Source: Methylibium sp.
GTDB lineage: Bacteria > Pseudomonadota > Gammaproteobacteria > Burkholderiales > Burkholderiaceae_C
NCBI GenBank assembly: GCA_013824165.1
Contig: PNNH01000079.1
Coordinates: 1 to 64,000, forward strand
Direction of reading: 5' to 3'
DNA: 64,000 bases
The notes under the pieces are model-generated. The model was not told where the DNA came from and did no database searches. It worked only from the letters and a program-made list of their open reading frames with translations. Positions 18,785 to 33,597 of the stretch are shown one piece after another (the stretch's first letter is position 1; every line of letters starts with the position of its first letter). Position numbers and translations under genes: made by a program.

Positions 18785-20413
18785 TCAAGCCAGCGCCTCC
18801 ACCTTGCCCCCCATCCGCGCAATCAGCCCCTGCGTCATGCGATTCGCCAGGCCGTAGACGCTGAGCTGCGGGTTGGCGCCGATGCTGGTGGGGAAGAGTG
18901 AGCCGTCGTGCACCGACAGATTGGCGATCTGCCAGTGCTGGCCGTCGGGGCGCACCACGCCGCGCTTGGCGTCGGCGGCCATGCCGCAGCCGCCCATCAC
19001 ATGCGCGCTGCCCACCATGGTGACGAAGGGGCGCAGGTCCAGCTTGGCAATCGCGGCGCGGGCTTGGACCATGCTGGTGTAGTCGCCGGCCAGCTCATGC
19101 ACCGGGCACACGCTCTTGGCGCCAGCGGCGAACTGGATCTCGGCCATGGCCAGGAAGGCGCGGCGCACGCCGTCGAACAGGTAGTCGTTGAGCGGATAGT
19201 CCAGCACCGCGCTGCCGTCCTTGCGCAGCTGCACCTGGCCGCCCACCGATTGCGCATGGAAGCCGTCGCGCAGCAGCGCGATCATTACCTGCGTGTTGGG
19301 AAACCGGCGCACGCGCTCGGCCAGTGCCGGGCCGAAGCCGCCCAGATTGGTGGCGGCAAAGCCCGGGTGAACCGGCGCCACTTCGAGCTTGAAGCCCATC
19401 GGGCCATCGACCGGGCCCTGGTGCAGGAAGTGGTCGCTGAACACCGACAGCGGCGCGCCGGCCCAGCCCTCCACCGGCGCGGGCATCAGCGCGCCGCTGG
19501 CCACCGTGGGGTGCAAGAAGGTGCGCTTGCCCAGCAGCGTATGTGGGTCGGGTGCCTTGGAACGCAGCAGCAGGCCCGGGTTGTTGATGGCGCCGCCGCC
19601 CAGCACATAGTGGCGGGCGCGGATGCGCACCGGCGCGCCGGCCGGGGTGCCGTTCAGCTCGATGGGCTGGCACAGCAGGGCCTGCACCAGGCCGTCCTTG
19701 CCGAACTCCAGCTGCTGCGCGCGGGTCTGCACCAGCAGCTGCGCACCGCGGTCCAGTGCCGCCGGGATGGTGGTGACCAGCATCGACTGCTTGGCATTGG
19801 TGGGACAGCCCATGCCGCAGGAGCCCAGATTCCAGCACCCCTTGACGTTGCGCTGCACGACGAAGGCGGGGATGCCCAGCTTGTCGGCGCCGCGCTTGAG
19901 CACCGCATTGTTTTCGTTGGGCGAGGTCTGCCATTCGCCGATATTGAGCCGGCGCTCGACCTGCTCGAACCAGGGCGCCATCTGCGATTCGGTGAACTCG
20001 TTGAGGCCGAATTCGCGCGCCCAGGTCTCCAGCGCGTCCTTGGGTGTGCGGAAGGAGCCGGTCCAGTTGATCGTGGTGGACCCGCCCACGCAGCGGCCCT
20101 GCAGAATGTTCATGCCCTGGTCGGCGGTCTTGCGGCCGGCGGCTTCCTGGTAGAGGTTGGCGTAAGCCGTGTCTTCGCGCTGCGGCTTGAAGTCGCTGCT
20201 GGAGCGCAGCGGGCCTTCCTCGACGAGGACGACGCGCAGGCCGGCGCGCGTCAGCAGCTCGGCTGTGATGCCGGCGCCGGCGCCGCTGCCGACGATGGCC
20301 ACATCGCACTCCAGCTCGGCCGGGGCAGCGGCGCGTGCGCCGCCGAAGACCTTCCAGCCGCGCTGCAGGCCTTCGAGGATGGGATCGGGAATGCTGCTGT
20401 TGGAAGAACTCAT
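18785..20413 (-). CDS. GMC-family FAD alcohol dehydrogenase, LaoA-like
   Basis: About 542 residues. The FAD dinucleotide fold is CDVAIVGSGAGAG (Gly-42 to Gly-48). GMC hallmarks are GRCVGGSTTINWTG in the N-terminal half and SAHVMGGCGMA plus GANPQLSVYGLA at the C-terminus. It oxidises primary alcohols to aldehydes. The order of its operon (aldehyde dehydrogenase, small Tat-like protein, GMC enzyme, all with tight junctions) matches laoCBA (PA0366-PA0364) of Pseudomonas aeruginosa, which oxidises long-chain alcohols. The start at 20413 overlaps the preceding stop (ATGA). Confidence 0.85.
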   Translation of the reverse strand: MSSSNSSIPDPILEGLQRGWKVFGGARAAAPAELECDVAIVGSGAGAGITAELLTRAGLRVVLVEEGPLRSSSDFKPQREDTAYANLYQEAAGRKTADQGMNILQGRCVGGSTTINWTGSFRTPKDALETWAREFGLNEFTESQMAPWFEQVERRLNIGEWQTSPNENNAVLKRGADKLGIPAFVVQRNVKGCWNLGSCGMGCPTNAKQSMLVTTIPAALDRGAQLLVQTRAQQLEFGKDGLVQALLCQPIELNGTPAGAPVRIRARHYVLGGGAINNPGLLLRSKAPDPHTLLGKRTFLHPTVASGALMPAPVEGWAGAPLSVFSDHFLHQGPVDGPMGFKLEVAPVHPGFAATNLGGFGPALAERVRRFPNTQVMIALLRDGFHAQSVGGQVQLRKDGSAVLDYPLNDYLFDGVRRAFLAMAEIQFAAGAKSVCPVHELAGDYTSMVQARAAIAKLDLRPFVTMVGSAHVMGGCGMAADAKRGVVRPDGQHWQIANLSVHDGSLFPTSIGANPQLSVYGLANRMTQGLIARMGGKVEALA

Positions 20414-20970
20414 GGAATCGCTCGCGGTCCGGGGTAGCCGACCAGGGCCCAATGGGTGGGGTCGGTGAAGAAGGCCAGGCTGCTGAGGTCGCGCAGCGCG
20501 CGGTAGATCTGCTGGCGGGTGTTGCTGTCCGAGACGCGCAGCTGCTCCAGCACGCCGGCCAGCTCGGGCGTGCTGACCGTGTCCCAGCTGCTCTTCAGGC
20601 CGATCAGCCCGAAGCGGCCGGGCGCGGTGTCCAGCAGGCTCAGCACTTGCGAGAGCTCGGCGCGCACCGGCGCCGGGAAGACTGCGATATTGGCGTCCAA
20701 TCGGTCCAGGAAGGCGTTCAGTGTCGTCTCGCGCGCGGCTGCGTCGCTGGGCAGCAGGCCGCCATCAAACACCGCCAGCGCCACCGCGCGGAACAGGCTG
20801 CGCGCGCCGGGGCTGAGCTTCTTGTCGCCGTCGACCAGGCCGGGCTTGAGCAGGGCCACGCCGCCGCCGGCCACCGCCAGCACGACGGCCGCGCCCAGGC
20901 CCAGCTTGAGCAGGCGGCGGCGCTTGGGATCAGGTGTTGCCATCGGGGAACTCTTCGAGCTGCTTGTCAT
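20410..20970 (-). CDS. Small subunit-like protein of the alcohol oxidation operon, LaoB-like
   Basis: 186 residues. The N-terminus DPKRRRLLKLGLGAAVVLAVAGGG resembles a twin-arginine signal or a membrane anchor with a basic run, and the rest is helical and soluble, like gluconate-dehydrogenase subunit 3 proteins. In such systems the small protein helps fold, export or anchor the GMC partner. The ATG at 20970 has GAGGA upstream and follows the aldehyde dehydrogenase stop by 8 bases; the next gene overlaps it by 4. Assignment rests on operon position plus this architecture. Confidence 0.7.
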   Translation of the reverse strand: MTSSSKSSPMATPDPKRRRLLKLGLGAAVVLAVAGGGVALLKPGLVDGDKKLSPGARSLFRAVALAVFDGGLLPSDAAARETTLNAFLDRLDANIAVFPAPVRAELSQVLSLLDTAPGRFGLIGLKSSWDTVSTPELAGVLEQLRVSDSNTRQQIYRALRDLSSLAFFTDPTHWALVGYPGPRAIP

Positions 20971-20978
20971 CGGTGTCC

Positions 20979-22388
20979 TCAGGCAATCTTCTTCAGCAGG
21001 CCCAGCAGGCGGTTGAAGGTGGCGCCATAGGGCGGGTAGAACAGCTTGGTGCCGGCGAAGAAGCGCGGCTGGCTGAACACCGGCTTCATCTTGCTGAAGG
21101 TGTTGAAGCCCCAGACGCCGTGATAGGCGCCCTGGCCGCTGGCGCCGACGCCGCCGAAGGGCTGGTCTTCCTGGCCGATGTGCCAGATGCAATCGTTCAG
21201 CGTCACGCCGCCGGCGTGGGTCTGCGCCAGCACGCGCTCGCGCGCGCCGCTGTCGGCGCCGAACCAGTACAGCGCCAGCGGGCGCTCATGGTCCTTGATG
21301 TAGTCCAGCGCCTGCTGCTCGCTGTCGTAGGGCAGGATGGGCAGCAGCGGGCCGAAGATTTCTTCCTGCATCACCGTCATGCCCTCGTTGACGTCCAGCA
21401 GCAGGTGCGGCACCAGCTTGCGGCCTTCGCTCCCCTCATGCGTGGGCAGCAGGCGGGCGCCCTTGGCGCTGGCGTCGTCCAGCAGGCCCTGCAGGCGCGC
21501 CAGGTGGCGCGGCGTGGCAATGGCGCTGTAGTCGGGGTTACCGGCGATGCTCGGGTAGAGGCGCCGCACCGCGGAGATCAGTGCGTCGGCCAGCGGCTGC
21601 ACCATGGCGCGCGGCGCCAGGATGTAGTCGGGCGCGATGCAGGTCTGGCCGGCATTGAGCAACTTGCCGAAGGCCAGGCGCTCGGCCACCAGTGCGATAT
21701 CGGCGCTGGCATCCACCAGCGCCGGCGACTTGCCGCCCAACTCCAGCGTCACCGGGGTCAGGTGTTGCGCCGCGGCCTGGGCCACCAGCTTGCCCACCGC
21801 GGTGGAGCCGGTGAAGAACAGGTGGTCGAAGGGCAGGGCCGAGAAGGCACGGCCCACTGTGGCGTCGCCGGTGATGACCTGCATTTCTTCGGGCGCGAAG
21901 AACTCGCCCACCATGCGCGCCATCAGCGCCGAGGTCTCGGGCGTCAGCTCAGAGGGCTTGATCATCACGCGGTTGCCGGCGGCCAGCGCGGCGATGGCCG
22001 GGCTCATGGCCAACTGGTAGGGGTAGTTCCAGGGCGCGATCACGCCCACCACACCCAGCGGCTGCGGGATCAGGCGGTTGCTGGCCGGGAGGTAGTGCAG
22101 CGCGGTGGGCATGCGGCGCTGGCGCATCCAGCGGCCCAGATGCGAAGCAGCATGCTTGGCCGCCATCTCGACCGTTGCCACATCGGCCAGCAGGGTCTCG
22201 TGGCGCGAGCGGTGGCTGAAATCGCGCGAGATGGTGTCGGCCAGTTCGTCGGCGTACTTGCGCGTCATCGTCAGCACGCGGGCCAGGCGATCGCGGCGCG
22301 TGGCCAGGCTGGGCATGGGCTCGGCGCGGTAGGCGGCGCGCTGCAGCTCAAGGGCCAGGTTCAATGTCTCGTTGATGGTGTTGTCCAC
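20979..22388 (-). CDS. Coniferyl-aldehyde-dehydrogenase-like enzyme, LaoC-like
   Basis: 469-residue NAD(P)-dependent aldehyde dehydrogenase. Catalytic residues are visible: Glu in VTLELGGKSPALVD and Cys in NAGQTCIAPDY; cofactor-site motifs APWNYPYQLAMSP and FTGSTAVGK are intact. The C-terminus is basic (GLLKKIA), as in membrane-associated coniferyl-type ALDHs. It is the first gene of the laoCBA-like operon and would convert the aldehyde made by the GMC enzyme to a fatty acid. No TetR-type LaoR gene is adjacent; the divergent neighbour encodes a YciI protein. Confidence 0.87.
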   Translation of the reverse strand: MDNTINETLNLALELQRAAYRAEPMPSLATRRDRLARVLTMTRKYADELADTISRDFSHRSRHETLLADVATVEMAAKHAASHLGRWMRQRRMPTALHYLPASNRLIPQPLGVVGVIAPWNYPYQLAMSPAIAALAAGNRVMIKPSELTPETSALMARMVGEFFAPEEMQVITGDATVGRAFSALPFDHLFFTGSTAVGKLVAQAAAQHLTPVTLELGGKSPALVDASADIALVAERLAFGKLLNAGQTCIAPDYILAPRAMVQPLADALISAVRRLYPSIAGNPDYSAIATPRHLARLQGLLDDASAKGARLLPTHEGSEGRKLVPHLLLDVNEGMTVMQEEIFGPLLPILPYDSEQQALDYIKDHERPLALYWFGADSGARERVLAQTHAGGVTLNDCIWHIGQEDQPFGGVGASGQGAYHGVWGFNTFSKMKPVFSQPRFFAGTKLFYPPYGATFNRLLGLLKKIA

Positions 22389-28710: not shown

Positions 28711-29328
28711 TCAGGCCTTGCGGCGGCGCGAGAAACCGACGCAGGCGGCCAGGCCGGCCAGAGCCAGAGCGAGGCTGGCGGGCTCAGGCACTGCGTTGAC
28801 GCTGACATTGTCCAGCGAGGTGCCATAGCTGTCGGAACTGCCGAGGGCGCCGAAGCTCAGGCGCGTCTGCGAGCCCTGGGCTACGAAGCTGGTGCTCAGC
28901 GTGGTCCAGCCGGTCTTGCTGTCCTGGCCGAAGGCGTTGCAATCCATGTCGCCGATCTTCCAGCACAGGCCGTTGCTGGCCTGGCCCTTGTGGTCCGGAC
29001 GCTGGGCATAGGAGAAGCTCAGCTCGTAACGCTGGCCGGCGACGGTGTTCAGCATCTGCCAGATCGAGCTGTTGCCGGTGGTGTCCAGCTCGACAAAGTA
29101 CTTGCCAAACGGTGTGCTGCCAGCGGCGCCATTGCGCACTTCGATATTGCCGTTCCAGCCGGCGATGCCGTTGAAATTGCTCCAGCTACCTTGCGCCAGG
29201 GTCTGGTTCGGCTGGGCCAGACTCTCGAAGCTGCCGTTGACGACGATGTTGGGGGACACCGGGCCTGCCAGTGCCTGGCTGGCCCACAGCGGGCAGCTCA
29301 TCAGGATGGCAAGGAGGACTGGGCGCAT
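28711..29328 (-). CDS. PEP-CTERM sorting-domain protein
   Basis: 205-residue exported protein. An N-terminal signal peptide (VLLAILMSCPLWASQALA) is followed by a beta-rich region with NIVVNGSFE, IAGWNGNIEV and FVELDTTG, resembling DUF642-like carbohydrate-binding modules. The C-terminus carries the exosortase signal: VPEPASLALALAGLAACVGF then RRRKA. Such proteins are processed by an exosortase and linked to exopolysaccharide or biofilm matrix. No exosortase gene is in this window. Upstream in-frame codons are excluded because they would bury the signal peptide. Confidence 0.92.
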   Translation of the reverse strand: MRPVLLAILMSCPLWASQALAGPVSPNIVVNGSFESLAQPNQTLAQGSWSNFNGIAGWNGNIEVRNGAAGSTPFGKYFVELDTTGNSSIWQMLNTVAGQRYELSFSYAQRPDHKGQASNGLCWKIGDMDCNAFGQDSKTGWTTLSTSFVAQGSQTRLSFGALGSSDSYGTSLDNVSVNAVPEPASLALALAGLAACVGFSRRRKA

Positions 29329-29467
29329 TCGGGACTCCGGGGGGGTGAGAGGATCAATGCCGGAATTGTCCCGAGCTGCGCCGCAGCCGGCTTTCCCGCG
29401 GCCGCGGGGGAGCCGCTGCTGATTCGTGACGGAGTTGGCGGCGCGCCGAACGGCGCCGCGGGCTGCC

Positions 29468-30712
29468 TCAGGCCGGCTGGCGTGCTTCCAGCGTGCGCAG
29501 GCTGTGATCCAGGCGTTGCAGCGCCTGCTCCAGGCGGCAACCGGTCTGCGGCTGCTCGGCGAGCAGGCGTCGCTGCGGATCGTGCAGCACATCCATGCGC
29601 AGGCTCAGGCCATGCGGCGCCAGCTGGTGCTGCAGCTTGATATGGCGCTTCAGAAGCAGCGCGCGCGTGGCCTGGTAGGCATGCTCGGCCAGATGCCGGC
29701 GCTGCGAGTAGCTGAAGGTGTTGGCCAGAAACAGCTCAGGGTCGCGCGGATCGGGCTCGAACAGCAGGATGTCGGTCTCCGGGTGGCTGCGCGCATAGCC
29801 ACGCATGCCCAGCTCCAGCCGCGAGTGGATCAGCGAGCGCAGCGTCTGGCTCAGCACCACCGGCAGGCCGCCATCAACCAGGCGCGGAATCGGCGGTGCG
29901 CTGGCGTGGGGCGCGAGCTCGGCCTGGTCGTCCTCGCGGTGCGCTTGATACGGCACCAGCGGGTTCAGGCAGATCAGCAGATCCAGCCCTTCGTTGAGCA
30001 GCACCGAGGCGTGGATGGTGCGCTTGAGCGCACCGTCGACGAAGTGGCGGCCCTCGATCTCGACCGGTGGGAAAAGGCCGGGCAGTGCCGCGCTGGCCTG
30101 CACCGCGCGCGAGATCGGCACATGGTCGTGCCCCGGCATGCCGAAGGGCACGGATTCGCCGCTGTCCAGGTCGGTGGCCACCAGCACCAGGCGCCGCTTG
30201 AGCTTGCGGAAGTCGTCGCTGCGGCCCTTCTGGCTGAACTGCAGATGCACCTGCTCGGCCAGCTTCTCGCCGGACAAGAGGCCGGTGGGCAGGGCCCGCG
30301 CCAGGCGCTCGAAAGCCCCCAGCAGCGAGCGCCGCTCCACCACGCGCTGCCATAGTGCCTCGCCCAGCAGGGCCGGCAGGCTGCGCAGGCGCCGCAGGTA
30401 TTCATCCCAGGCCGGATGCAGCAGCACGCTGGGGTCGAAGCTGTCGGGCGGCGGCGCGGTGTTCTCGATGAAGGCCGCGCAGATCTGGCGCGGCGTCATG
30501 CCGTTGACCAGCGCGGCAGCGATGAAGCCGCCAGCGCTGACGCCGATATAGCTGTCGCAGCGCGTCAGGTCGAGCCCGTCGATCGATTCCTGGATCGCGC
30601 ACAGCGCGCCGATTTCGTAGATCGCGCCCAGTGGCCCACCTCCGGCCAGCGCCAGGCCGATGCGTGGCTTGGCCTGCTCCTGGGTCGGGCGGCGGCTACT
30701 GCTTTTGCTCAT
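29468..30712 (-). CDS. Patatin-like phospholipase
   Basis: 414 residues. The oxyanion hole is LALAGGGPLGAIYEIG (GGGxxG/A near residues 24-30), the nucleophile is Ser-59 in YIGVSAGG, and the dyad Asp is Asp-226 in FVDGALKRT. These are the Ser-Asp lipase residues of patatins, which hydrolyse phospholipids, acylglycerols or granule-associated lipids. No signal peptide, so cytoplasmic. It lies 15 bases after the phasin gene on the same strand, which suggests a link to storage granules; some PHA and lipid granules carry patatin-type hydrolases. Confidence 0.92.
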   Translation of the reverse strand: MSKSSSRRPTQEQAKPRIGLALAGGGPLGAIYEIGALCAIQESIDGLDLTRCDSYIGVSAGGFIAAALVNGMTPRQICAAFIENTAPPPDSFDPSVLLHPAWDEYLRRLRSLPALLGEALWQRVVERRSLLGAFERLARALPTGLLSGEKLAEQVHLQFSQKGRSDDFRKLKRRLVLVATDLDSGESVPFGMPGHDHVPISRAVQASAALPGLFPPVEIEGRHFVDGALKRTIHASVLLNEGLDLLICLNPLVPYQAHREDDQAELAPHASAPPIPRLVDGGLPVVLSQTLRSLIHSRLELGMRGYARSHPETDILLFEPDPRDPELFLANTFSYSQRRHLAEHAYQATRALLLKRHIKLQHQLAPHGLSLRMDVLHDPQRRLLAEQPQTGCRLEQALQRLDHSLRTLEARQPA

Positions 30713-30727: not shown

Positions 30728-31393
30728 TCAGGCCTTGGCTGCCGGCTGGCTGGCCGCTGCGCGCTTGCGCGGTGCTGCGGCTTTCTTGGCGGGAGCGGCC
30801 GGTGCCGCCTTCTTGGCGGGCGCTGCCTTCTTTGCGGCGGGCTTGGCGGCTGGCTTGGCAGCCGCCTTCTTGACCGCAGGTTTGGCCGCGGCTTTGGGTG
30901 CAGCCTTCGTCGGGGCCTTCTTCTTGGCTGCGGCCGAGGCCGCCGGCTTGCCGCTGACTTTGCCGCCCAGCGCATCAATGCGCGCGATCAGCGCATCGAT
31001 TTCCTTGGCGGTCGGCACACCCAGGCGCTTGAGGGCGCGAGCGACGCGCTCTTCAAAGATGGTTTCGAGCTTGTCCCAATGCTGGCCGGCCTTGGTGCCG
31101 ACTTCATCGGCCATGCCGCTCATCTTCTGCGCCACCGCGCCGAGCTTTTCCTCGGCCACCGATTGGGTCTTCTTCTGCAGCTTCATGCCTTCATGCACCA
31201 GCGCATCGAAGACCTTGCCGCCTTCGCCCTGTGCCTTGGCAAAGGCGCCCAGGCCGGCTGCCCAGATCTGGTGTGCCGAGTCGCGCACGCTTTGACCCAG
31301 AGCGCCGTCCAGCAGTCCGGCGGGCAGGCCGGGAATCGCCGAGCTGGCCGTTGCCTTCTGCTTGGCGGCCATTTTCTGAAGCTTCTTGACCAT
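30728..31393 (-). CDS. Phasin-family granule-associated protein with histone-like AKPA tail (PhaF/PhaI type)
   Basis: 221 residues in two parts. Residues ~1-140 are amphipathic and helical (SVRDSAHQIWAAGLGAFAKA, then GKVFDALVHEGMKLQ), the poly(hydroxyalkanoate) granule-associated domain. Residues ~150-221 are low-complexity A/K/P repeats such as AAKPAVKKAAAKPAAKP, as in PhaF, where this tail binds DNA and helps segregate granules at division. It is co-directional with the patatin gene and divergent from the fatty acyl reductase. No PHA synthase is in the window. Confidence 0.9.
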   Translation of the reverse strand: MVKKLQKMAAKQKATASSAIPGLPAGLLDGALGQSVRDSAHQIWAAGLGAFAKAQGEGGKVFDALVHEGMKLQKKTQSVAEEKLGAVAQKMSGMADEVGTKAGQHWDKLETIFEERVARALKRLGVPTAKEIDALIARIDALGGKVSGKPAASAAAKKKAPTKAAPKAAAKPAVKKAAAKPAAKPAAKKAAPAKKAAPAAPAKKAAAPRKRAAASQPAAKA

Positions 31394-31593
31394 ATAGACA
31401 GTCCTTTATCGGTGAGTGGCAGGCGGCCGCAGCGTGGGCCTGTTTCGACTATAGGCCTGTCTTCAGCCGGCAGGCGCTGTGATTCCTAGTGTGCCGGCTC
31501 TACGACGCGCCCTGGGGAAAGTGCGCAGCAGCGCCGGCTGGCGCCTGGTCAAGAATCGGGCCACAACAAGCCCATGCAACGCAGGAGACAGGC

Positions 31594-33597
31594 ATGCAGT
31601 ATTTCGTCACCGGAGCCACTGGCTTCATCGGCAAGCGTCTGGTCAAGAAGCTGCTCGCGCGGCGCGGCAGCACGGTCTACTTCCTGCTTCGCGAGGAAAG
31701 CCGCGACAAGTTGCCCGAACTGCTGAACTTCTGGGGCGTCAGTAAGACGCGCGCGGTGCCGGTGTGGGGCGATCTCACCAGCAAGAAGCTGGGCGTGGCG
31801 GCCGAGCAGATCAAGGCCTTGAAGGGGCAGATCGACCACCTCTACCACCTGGCCGCCGTCTACGACCTGAAGGCCGACGAGGAAAGCCAGGTCAAGACCA
31901 ATATCGAAGGCACGCGCGCCATGGTGGAGTTTGCCCAGGCCATCGATGCCGGGCATGTGCACCATGTGTCGTCGATCGCCGCGGCCGGTCTGTACGAAGG
32001 CGTGTTCCGCGAGGACATGTTCAGCGAGGCCGAAGGACTGGAGCACCCTTACTTCATGACCAAGCACGAGAGCGAGAAGATCGTGCGCAAGGAGTGCAAG
32101 AAGCCCTGGACCGTCTACCGCCCGGCCATGGTGGTGGGCGACTCGCACACCGGCGAGATGGACAAGGTGGACGGCCCCTACTACTTCTTCAAGCCGATCC
32201 AGCGCCTGCGCCAGATCCTGCCGCCGTGGATGCCGGCCGTTGGCCTGGAGGGCGGGCGCGTCAACATCGTGCCGGTGGACTATGTGGTGGCGGTGCTCGA
32301 CCACATCAGCCACCACAGCCGCAAGAGCGGCGGCTGCTTCCACATCGTCGATCCGGTGGGCTACCGCGTCGGCGATGTGCTGGACATCTTCTCCAAGGCC
32401 GGCCATGCGCCGAAGATGAACCTGTTCATCAATGCGGCGCTGCTGGGCTTCATTCCGAAGAGCGTCAAGAAGGGCCTGATGGCGCTGGCGCCGGTGCGCC
32501 GCATCCGCCATGCGGTGATGAAGGATCTGGGCCTGCCCGAGGACATCCTCACCTTCATCAATTACCCGACCCGCTTCGACTGCCGCGAGACCGAGGCGAT
32601 GCTGAAGGGCTCGGGCATCAGCTGTCCCAATCTGCATGATTACGCCTGGCGGCTGTGGGACTACTGGGAACGCCACCTGGACCCGGACCTCTTCATCGAC
32701 CGCAGCCTGAAGGGCGCGACGAGCGGCAAGGTGGTGCTGGTCACCGGCGGCTCTTCCGGCATCGGCCTGGCGGCGGCCAAGAAGTTTGCCGAGGCCGGCG
32801 CCATCACGCTGATCTGCGCGCGTGACGAGGACAAGCTGGCTGAAGCCGTGGCCGATATCCGTGCATTCGCCGGCCCGAAGGCGCAGGTGCACAGCTTCTC
32901 GGCCGACATCGCCGACGAAGCCAGCTGCGCCGCGCTGATGGCCTGGATCCAGCAGAACTTCGGCGGCGTCGATTTCCTGATCAACAACGCCGGCCGTTCG
33001 ATCCGCCGCGCCATCGAGAGCAGCTACGACCGATTCCACGACTATCAGCGCACGATGGATCTGAACTACTTCGGCTGCCTGCGCGTCACGATGGGCCTGC
33101 TGCCCGGCATGGTGGCCAAGAAAAAGGGTCATGTGGTGAACATCTCCAGCATCGGCGTGCTGACCAATGCGCCGCGCTTCTCGGCCTATGTGGCCAGCAA
33201 GGCCGCGCTGGACGCCTGGACGCGCTGCGCCTCCAGCGAGTACGCCGATCTGGGCATCACCTTCACCACCATCAACATGCCGCTGGTGCGCACGCCGATG
33301 ATCGCGCCCACCAAGATCTACAACAACGTGCCGACGCTGAGCCCGGAGGAGGCCGCCGACATGGTGGCGCAGGCCTGCATCGCCAAGCCGGTGCGCATCG
33401 CCACCCGCCTGGGCGTGACCGGCGAGCTGATGCATTCGCTGATGCCGCGCGTGGCGCAGATCGTGATGAACACCAGCTTCCGCATGTTCCCCGACAGCGA
33501 TGCGGCCAAGGGTGATGCCGCGGGCAAGGGCGGCAAGCCTCAGCTCTCGGCCGAGGCCATCGCGCTGCAGCAGATGATGCGGGGCATCCACTTCTGA
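31594..33597 (+). CDS. Two-domain SDR protein, probable fatty acyl-CoA/ACP reductase (FAR)
   Basis: 667 residues made of two dehydrogenase domains. The N-terminal extended SDR has TGATGFIG (6-13) and a Y-x-x-x-K pair (Tyr-153, Lys-157), as in NAD_binding_4 acyl-CoA reductases. The C-terminal classical SDR has TGGSSGIG (384-391), NNAGRSIRR, NISSIGVLTNAPRFSAY and Tyr-532/Lys-536. Length, domain order and these blocks match the Marinobacter-type bifunctional reductase (about 660 residues) that reduces acyl-CoA through aldehyde to fatty alcohol for wax ester formation. The ATG at 31594 has AGGAGA upstream. The phasin and patatin next door support a storage-lipid role. The match is from memory, not a search. 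Confidence 0.82.
   Translation: MQYFVTGATGFIGKRLVKKLLARRGSTVYFLLREESRDKLPELLNFWGVSKTRAVPVWGDLTSKKLGVAAEQIKALKGQIDHLYHLAAVYDLKADEESQVKTNIEGTRAMVEFAQAIDAGHVHHVSSIAAAGLYEGVFREDMFSEAEGLEHPYFMTKHESEKIVRKECKKPWTVYRPAMVVGDSHTGEMDKVDGPYYFFKPIQRLRQILPPWMPAVGLEGGRVNIVPVDYVVAVLDHISHHSRKSGGCFHIVDPVGYRVGDVLDIFSKAGHAPKMNLFINAALLGFIPKSVKKGLMALAPVRRIRHAVMKDLGLPEDILTFINYPTRFDCRETEAMLKGSGISCPNLHDYAWRLWDYWERHLDPDLFIDRSLKGATSGKVVLVTGGSSGIGLAAAKKFAEAGAITLICARDEDKLAEAVADIRAFAGPKAQVHSFSADIADEASCAALMAWIQQNFGGVDFLINNAGRSIRRAIESSYDRFHDYQRTMDLNYFGCLRVTMGLLPGMVAKKKGHVVNISSIGVLTNAPRFSAYVASKAALDAWTRCASSEYADLGITFTTINMPLVRTPMIAPTKIYNNVPTLSPEEAADMVAQACIAKPVRIATRLGVTGELMHSLMPRVAQIVMNTSFRMFPDSDAAKGDAAGKGGKPQLSAEAIALQQMMRGIHF

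Follow-up and report, generated by a model that had tools for sequence, protein, structure and literature searches.

A Marinobacter-type fatty acyl-CoA reductase divergent from a phasin gene in Methylibium sp. and its probable role in wax-ester storage

Which pathway is served by a fatty acyl-CoA reductase (FAR) whose gene lies back to back with a phasin-patatin pair is the question raised by a locus of Methylibium sp. (assembly GCA_013824165.1, contig PNNH01000079.1, positions 1 to 64,000 of the forward strand; this whole stretch of 64,000 nucleotides is referred to here as the window). The FAR gene (31594..33597, plus strand) codes for a protein of 667 amino acids and is divergent from the gene of a PhaF/PhaI-family phasin of 221 amino acids (30728..31393, minus strand), behind which lies the gene of a patatin-like hydrolase, probably a lipase or phospholipase (29468..30712, minus strand). 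A preliminary description of this region, whose limits span the phasin and FAR genes and not the patatin gene, had recognised a 667-residue two-domain reductase of the Marinobacter type divergent from the pair, and had proposed a module for the synthesis and storage of wax esters or fatty alcohols. The reductase type and the gene orientation were confirmed, and we estimate the probability that FAR makes fatty alcohols for wax-ester storage at about 75%.

The FAR frame was read from the ATG at 31594 to the stop at 33597, while a GTG at 31489 would give a longer frame. The protein matches the profile NF005539 over its full length (residues 1-667 on profile positions 1-657) with 997.9 bits, the curated cut-off being 549 bits, and contains the Pfam domains NAD_binding_4 (residues 5-234) and adh_short (residues 379-571). 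A two-domain reductase named maFACR, presumably identical to MAQU_2507, was reportedly described from Marinobacter aquaeolei VT8 by Willis in 2011. Like the window FAR it has two short-chain dehydrogenase/reductase (SDR) domains, about 660 residues (661 as opposed to 667) and both Ser-Tyr-Lys sets. In maFACR, aldehyde reduction is assigned to Ser126/Tyr152/Lys156 and acyl-CoA reduction to Ser515/Tyr527/Lys532 (PMC7573125), and these positions align with S127, Y153 and K157 in the N-terminal part and S519, Y532 and K536 in the C-terminal part of the window FAR. Because of the full-length profile match and the conserved catalytic residues, the classification as a putative Marinobacter-type two-domain reductase, and as a member of a known family, is supported. 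Three FARs of 661 residues from one genus (genomes G321, G285 and G218) are 58% identical to the window FAR, and in the 661-residue relatives the catalytic residues are S126, Y152, K156, S515, Y528 and K532, with the second tyrosine one off from the printed 527 of maFACR. As the same residue numbers also occur in the FARs of G427, G301, G152, G736 and G547, they were dropped as a Marinobacter marker for the 661-residue group.

The formation of wax esters would in addition call for a wax synthase, and the preliminary description had already suggested looking for one elsewhere. PF03007 has exactly one match in the own genome at E 0.001 (G000:C2:97988-98797, 112 bits). The corresponding wax synthase/diacylglycerol acyltransferase (WS/DGAT, shortened to WS below; L146:7908-9398) matches PF03007 with 110.1 bits, PF06974 (WS_DGAT_C) with 130.3 bits and TIGR02946 with 366.4 bits (cut-off 310), and its translation shows the HHxxxDG motif in the form HHCIADG. 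It is related to the solved WS/DGATs 7nxg and 6chj and shares 48-66% identity with the homologues encoded in the FAR loci of 14 genomes of the family. Its gene is adjoined by those of an acyl-CoA-binding protein (ACBP, PF00887, 99 bits) and a PHA_gran_rgn protein (PF09650, 104 bits).

The association of the two enzymes was examined in a sample of the window's family comprising 150 genomes from 141 genera, in which FAR was found over the cut-off in 73 genomes, WS in 82 and the phasin family PF05597 in 110. FAR and WS occur together in 73 genomes, FAR alone in none, WS alone in nine and neither in 68 (Fisher p = 3.6e-33), which corresponds to WS in 9 of the 77 genomes lacking FAR; one of these nine, G050, has a C-terminal FAR fragment under the cut-off. 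The phasin family PF05597 follows the same pattern, both with FAR (73 with both, 0 with FAR only, 37 with the phasin only, 40 with neither) and with WS (82 with both, 0 with WS only, 28 with the phasin only, 40 with neither). The polyhydroxyalkanoate (PHA) synthase domain PhaC_N was present in 148 of the 150 genomes and was consequently uninformative as a discriminator for FAR. The other phasin family, PF09361, was likewise matched in 148 genomes, in 147 of them over the cut-off; the match of G140 lies under it, and G118, which has FAR and WS, gave no PF09361 match. Because PhaC and PF09361 are near-universal while PF05597 tracks WS and FAR, PF05597 is not simply a companion of PHA.

The arrangement of the genes was compared in a set of named relatives consisting of the best 80 loci of 576 confirmed relatives (more exist), the titles of which refer to Burkholderiales genera or to metagenome-assembled genomes whose labels go no further than family, order, class or phylum. 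FAR identity in these loci ranges from 78 to 90%. A phasin was found by tblastn on the strand opposite FAR in 77 of them, at most 0.4 kb upstream of FAR in 73 and at 1.9-6.1 kb in four (L073, L076, L083, L110), and in the three loci with no phasin match (L079, L082, L093) FAR lies at most 1.8 kb from the contig end. Within the family sample, the phasin is divergent and at most 1.5 kb from FAR in 69 of the 73 FAR genomes; in one more it lies 3 kb away, and in three it is on a different contig. Since the opposite-strand phasin recurs in 77 of the 80 named loci and the divergent phasin in 69 of the 73 family genomes, the FAR-phasin arrangement is not due to chance. Of the 80 named loci, 50 gave a match to the patatin, which in 49 of these is directly behind the phasin on the same strand.

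Other genes of the wax and granule type join the pair in some relatives. A TetR protein (PF13972), present in many relatives' FAR loci, occurs in 19 of the 80 named loci, a tetratricopeptide repeat (TPR) protein in 18 and WS in one (L100, Hydrogenophaga). In at least 13 of the 73 family genomes with FAR, the starts of WS and FAR are at most 10 kb apart. Fourteen loci (L123-L136), fetched because WS and FAR lie within about 14 kb of each other, contain ACBP and WS in all 14, TetR and phasin in 13 each, TPR and PHA_gran_rgn in 11 each and patatin in 10. WS and FAR share a strand in 11 of the 14, where the order is ACBP, WS (forward), then TPR, TetR, patatin and phasin (all reverse), then FAR (forward), some loci lacking one gene. 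The own genome carries this set in at least two pieces; TetR and TPR gave no match in the window or in L146, the rest of the own genome not having been searched for them.

Beyond the family, a phylum sample of 398 genomes contained FAR in 14, all of them with WS, which was present in 42; nine of the 14 lie outside the family. In a class sample of 369 genomes FAR occurred in 12, of which eight were new, six of these eight with WS, giving WS in 15 of the 17 non-family FAR genomes. PF05597 was over the cut-off in eight of the nine from the phylum sample and three of the eight from the class sample, and it lies at most 2 kb from FAR or WS in 4 of the 17, where about 0.1 would be expected according to a simple density estimate. 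In G427, phasin and patatin follow FAR, genes for TPR, TetR, ACBP and PHA_gran_rgn lie close by, and WS is on a different contig; G384 has, in this order, two phasins, WS, an Abhydrolase_3 hydrolase, TetR, DUF2505 and FAR; and G601 has a WS-phasin pair with FAR on another contig. The FARs of G427, G384, G736 and G601 are 52-61% identical to the window FAR, which makes a recent transfer of these four from the window's family appear unlikely. A TetR relative was found in 4 of the 17 non-family FAR loci (L140, L141, L145, L147) and ACBP in 2 of the 17, and a phasin was not found near the FARs of G321, G285 and G218. As to other genes of these loci, the DUF2505 protein of G384 (L145 8645-9136) sits between TetR and FAR, and in G736 (L147 3112-11935) the upstream genes resemble, as judged by eye, those of a DUF1329-type protein, a BNR-type protein and an RND-type transporter.

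The window phasin matches PF05597 with 150.6 bits and TIGR01837 with 99 bits (cut-off 94.7), and its tail is rich in Lys, Ala and Pro, with 19 K, 36 A and 11 P in the final 75 residues. The tails of the phasins in the 77 named relatives have a median length of 70 residues, about a quarter of which are K or R, and 65 of the 77 contain at least 12 K/R. Both features of a PhaF-type phasin, the PF05597 domain and a basic Ala/Lys/Pro tail, are thus found in the window protein; the basic tail of PhaF is described as binding DNA (PMC5658603; PMC9049629). The patatin matches PF01734 with 104.1 bits and has the motifs GVSAG at position 57 and DGA at position 226; PlpD is its sole relative in the PDB by sequence at E 0.001. 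Its gene lies 15 bp downstream of the phasin gene, and due to this short gap the two are likely to be co-transcribed.

In view of the co-occurrence of FAR and WS, the simplest account is that the two enzymes make wax esters. By analogy with maFACR, and as suggested by homology and the conserved residues, the C-terminal SDR domain would reduce acyl-CoA to the aldehyde with NADPH, and the N-terminal domain would convert the aldehyde to the alcohol without its release. The WS/DGAT encoded on another contig beside ACBP would then esterify the alcohol with a second acyl-CoA, a step for which the gene itself, its co-occurrence with FAR and the linkage of the two in relatives were observed and the activity is predicted. 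Judging from the linkage, the wax may gather in droplets, for which we infer the divergent PF05597 phasin to be the best candidate coat, and its basic tail may anchor them on the nucleoid in the way PhaF anchors PHA granules. Hydrolysis of the stored ester, or trimming of the droplet's phospholipid surface, is the probable task of the patatin, a suggestion drawn from its position in the locus and the weakest step of the scheme; in G384, the linked Abhydrolase_3 protein would be a candidate for wax breakdown instead of the patatin. The core of the module originally proposed is supported by the Marinobacter-type reductase, the wax synthase of the own genome, the co-occurrence of the two in 73 of 73 family genomes with FAR and the conserved neighbourhood, while the roles of phasin and patatin are suggested by linkage.

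Several points weigh against this account. The co-occurrence counts and the Fisher p value are uncorrected for common ancestry. The tie between FAR and WS/DGAT is not a strict one, because PF03007 is unmatched in the non-family FAR genomes G547 and G736 (97% and 98% complete), and G736 has TetR, FAR and a divergent phasin, yet no WS. PF05597 occurs in 28 of the 68 family genomes that have neither enzyme, 13 of the 17 non-family FAR genomes have no PF05597 match within 3 kb of FAR or WS, and the patatin was matched in no more than 50 of the 80 named loci. In the own genome, WS is not beside FAR, the patatin-phasin pair and FAR being on contig C3 and PHA_gran_rgn, ACBP and WS on contig C2. Moreover, the own WS scores low on PF03007 (110-112 bits), the family WS/DGATs ranging from about 100 to 264 bits among the matches listed and those linked to FAR in L123-L134 and L136 from about 102 to 134 bits; owing to this low score, a wax-synthase activity rather than a DGAT activity of the own protein is not certain.

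Some of these observations would be understandable if the WS/DGAT were mainly a DGAT making triacylglycerol (TAG), with the alcohol from FAR destined for another use such as excretion, a surface lipid or a redox sink. WS/DGATs are normally bifunctional (PMC2667194), and both the low PF03007 score of the own protein and the two genomes with FAR and no WS fit such a division of tasks. However, a role in TAG alone leaves unexplained that every one of the 73 family FAR genomes has WS and that at least 13 share a FAR-WS locus, and we therefore regard it as quite improbable. More fundamentally, the window protein could be a two-domain SDR acting on a different substrate and not an acyl-CoA reductase at all, as SDR families vary in substrate and the best 60 of 625 PDB matches all leave part of the protein uncovered. 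With a full-length match far over the NF005539 cut-off, both catalytic triads kept and the co-occurrence with WS, this appears very improbable indeed. A different kind of objection concerns the neighbours of FAR, since phasin and patatin may be ordinary PHA-granule housekeeping and FAR only an old neighbour, which would be compatible with wax synthesis by FAR and WS. PF05597 is known as a PHA phasin family (PMC5658603), PhaC is present in nearly all family genomes, and the WS-negative genomes with PF05597 as well as the non-family FAR genomes lacking it close by point in the same direction. Yet PF09361 is as universal as PhaC, whereas PF05597 tracks WS (82 of 82) and FAR (73 of 73), and its linkage to FAR or WS is seen again in four other families, so that we consider housekeeping an unlikely explanation of the pair, if a less far-fetched one than the two preceding.

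Returning to wax-ester storage by FAR and WS as the preferred interpretation, the FAR/WS loci give the impression of a PHA-granule kit that handles another lipid, because PF05597 and PF09650 both count as phasin families of PHA systems (PMC5658603) and the TetR-like PhaD activates the pha and phasin genes in Pseudomonas putida (PMC9049629). The locus resembles phaC1ZC2D-phaIF of P. putida in its PF05597 phasin with an AAKP-like basic tail, in the TetR-family regulator of many relatives' loci and in the PF09650 protein (PMC9049629; PMC5658603). It differs in that no PHA synthase or depolymerase adjoins the window phasin, as would be expected of a medium-chain-length PHA system; its neighbours are FAR and patatin, and in relatives WS or another hydrolase. 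PhaC_N has two matches in the own genome, the better one on contig C4 and not on C3. Three of the plasmid records matched by two locus TetR proteins were opened, of which two have no pha genes nearby and the third is unannotated there; the phasin query of plasmid records hit only three places, all unannotated. We tentatively propose, at somewhat less than even odds, an exchangeable accessory kit of bacterial storage bodies. In the FAR/WS loci of several proteobacterial families, phasin, TetR and PHA_gran_rgn, whose families are known from PHA granules or named after them, would serve the wax droplet, and FAR, WS and a lipase would take the place of PHA synthase and depolymerase. As a dedicated wax coat, the phasin would also tie droplets to the chromosome, with PF09361 phasins serving polyhydroxybutyrate in the same cell. 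The role proposed for the tail corresponds to that of the droplet protein MLDS of Rhodococcus jostii, which joins neutral-lipid droplets to DNA (PMC5504291), the comparison being one of role.

With regard to the literature, scaffolds with betaproteobacterial ws/dgat genes from Antarctic and Subantarctic sediments have been described with ACBP, an SDR about 59% identical to MAQU_2507 and a PHA-system protein, and with a phasin on another scaffold, and the ability of the classes concerned to make TAG, wax esters or PHA is stated there to be mostly unknown (PMC10351704). The same combination of WS/DGAT, ACBP, SDR and PHA-system protein is found here, and in addition the gene set was counted over 150 family genomes and beyond the family, with the phasin-FAR pair emerging as the conserved core. 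The word "patatin" does not occur in the main text of PMC10351704. Phasins are spoken of for PHA only in the available text of PMC5648520 and PMC2667194, and among the papers listed by a literature search that took in few subscription journals, none was found to measure wax esters in this group or to place a phasin on wax droplets. The statement of the preliminary description that the pathway is seldom described in this bacterial group was a fair one, with the reservation that a wax-ester potential of Burkholderiales has been published before (PMC10351704); what is newer is the presence of PHA-granule accessory genes in a wax locus. If the interpretation is true, a large group made up of Roseateles, Acidovorax, Hydrogenophaga, Rubrivivax and relatives, with the gene set present in dozens of genera, probably stores wax besides bioplastic, and the wax could come from sugars or acids and not only from alkanes, since FAR supplies the alcohol. 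Wax-ester droplets would gain a candidate structural and segregation protein, and one could test the notion that coat and control genes are exchangeable between PHA granules and neutral-lipid droplets.

The re-oxidation of long-chain alcohols had also been suggested, on account of a lao-like operon 10 kb away. The lao operon of P. aeruginosa has adjacent genes for an alcohol dehydrogenase of the glucose-methanol-choline (GMC) oxidoreductase type and an aldehyde dehydrogenase (ALDH), with a cognate regulator and activity on long-chain alcohols. The adjacent genes do exist, a GMC oxidoreductase (18785..20452, minus strand; PF00732/PF05199) and an ALDH (20979..22388, minus strand; PF00171, 285.4 bits), with a small protein encoded between them and all three in one minus-strand run, and by analogy their products could be candidates for long-chain alcohol oxidation. 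What ties them to FAR is their distance of about 9-13 kb, and a part of either in re-oxidation would be a suggestion from proximity. In the flanks of the 80 named loci (at most 10 kb, many ending short of the distance in question), GMC appears in one and ALDH in three.

The intergenic region between phasin and FAR (31394..31593) contains conserved non-coding blocks, which in a MAFFT alignment of 81 upstream regions from many genera lie around CTAGTG..CTCTA, GGG(T/A)AAGCGCGCA and TGG.CAAGAAT, the exact word CAAGAAT occurring in only 47 of the 81. A weight matrix, in which some of the building sites score below 0 and which was consequently built on a partly misaligned set, places the best copy of the block at 31515..31557 on the plus strand with a score of 42.5, the next best in the window scoring 6.6. 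No second copy was detected with this matrix elsewhere in the window or near the own WS, where the best score in L146 was 7.2 and lay off the ACBP-WS gap, and a shared FAR/WS regulon via the upstream block is unsupported.

Among the remaining neighbours, the iron-transport gene FeoB downstream of FAR (34277) was considered as a partner and dropped, as it was unmatched in the flanks of all 80 named loci. Directly behind the patatin gene, a DUF642 protein with a PEP-CTERM signal is encoded (28711-29592), which is found near FAR in only 7 of the 80. FAR relatives also turned up in a plasmid collection: in four Acinetobacter records the match is a protein with 54% identity to just the C-terminal domain of FAR, and two plasmids of Tsukamurella carry a relative that covers 95% of FAR with 41-43% identity.

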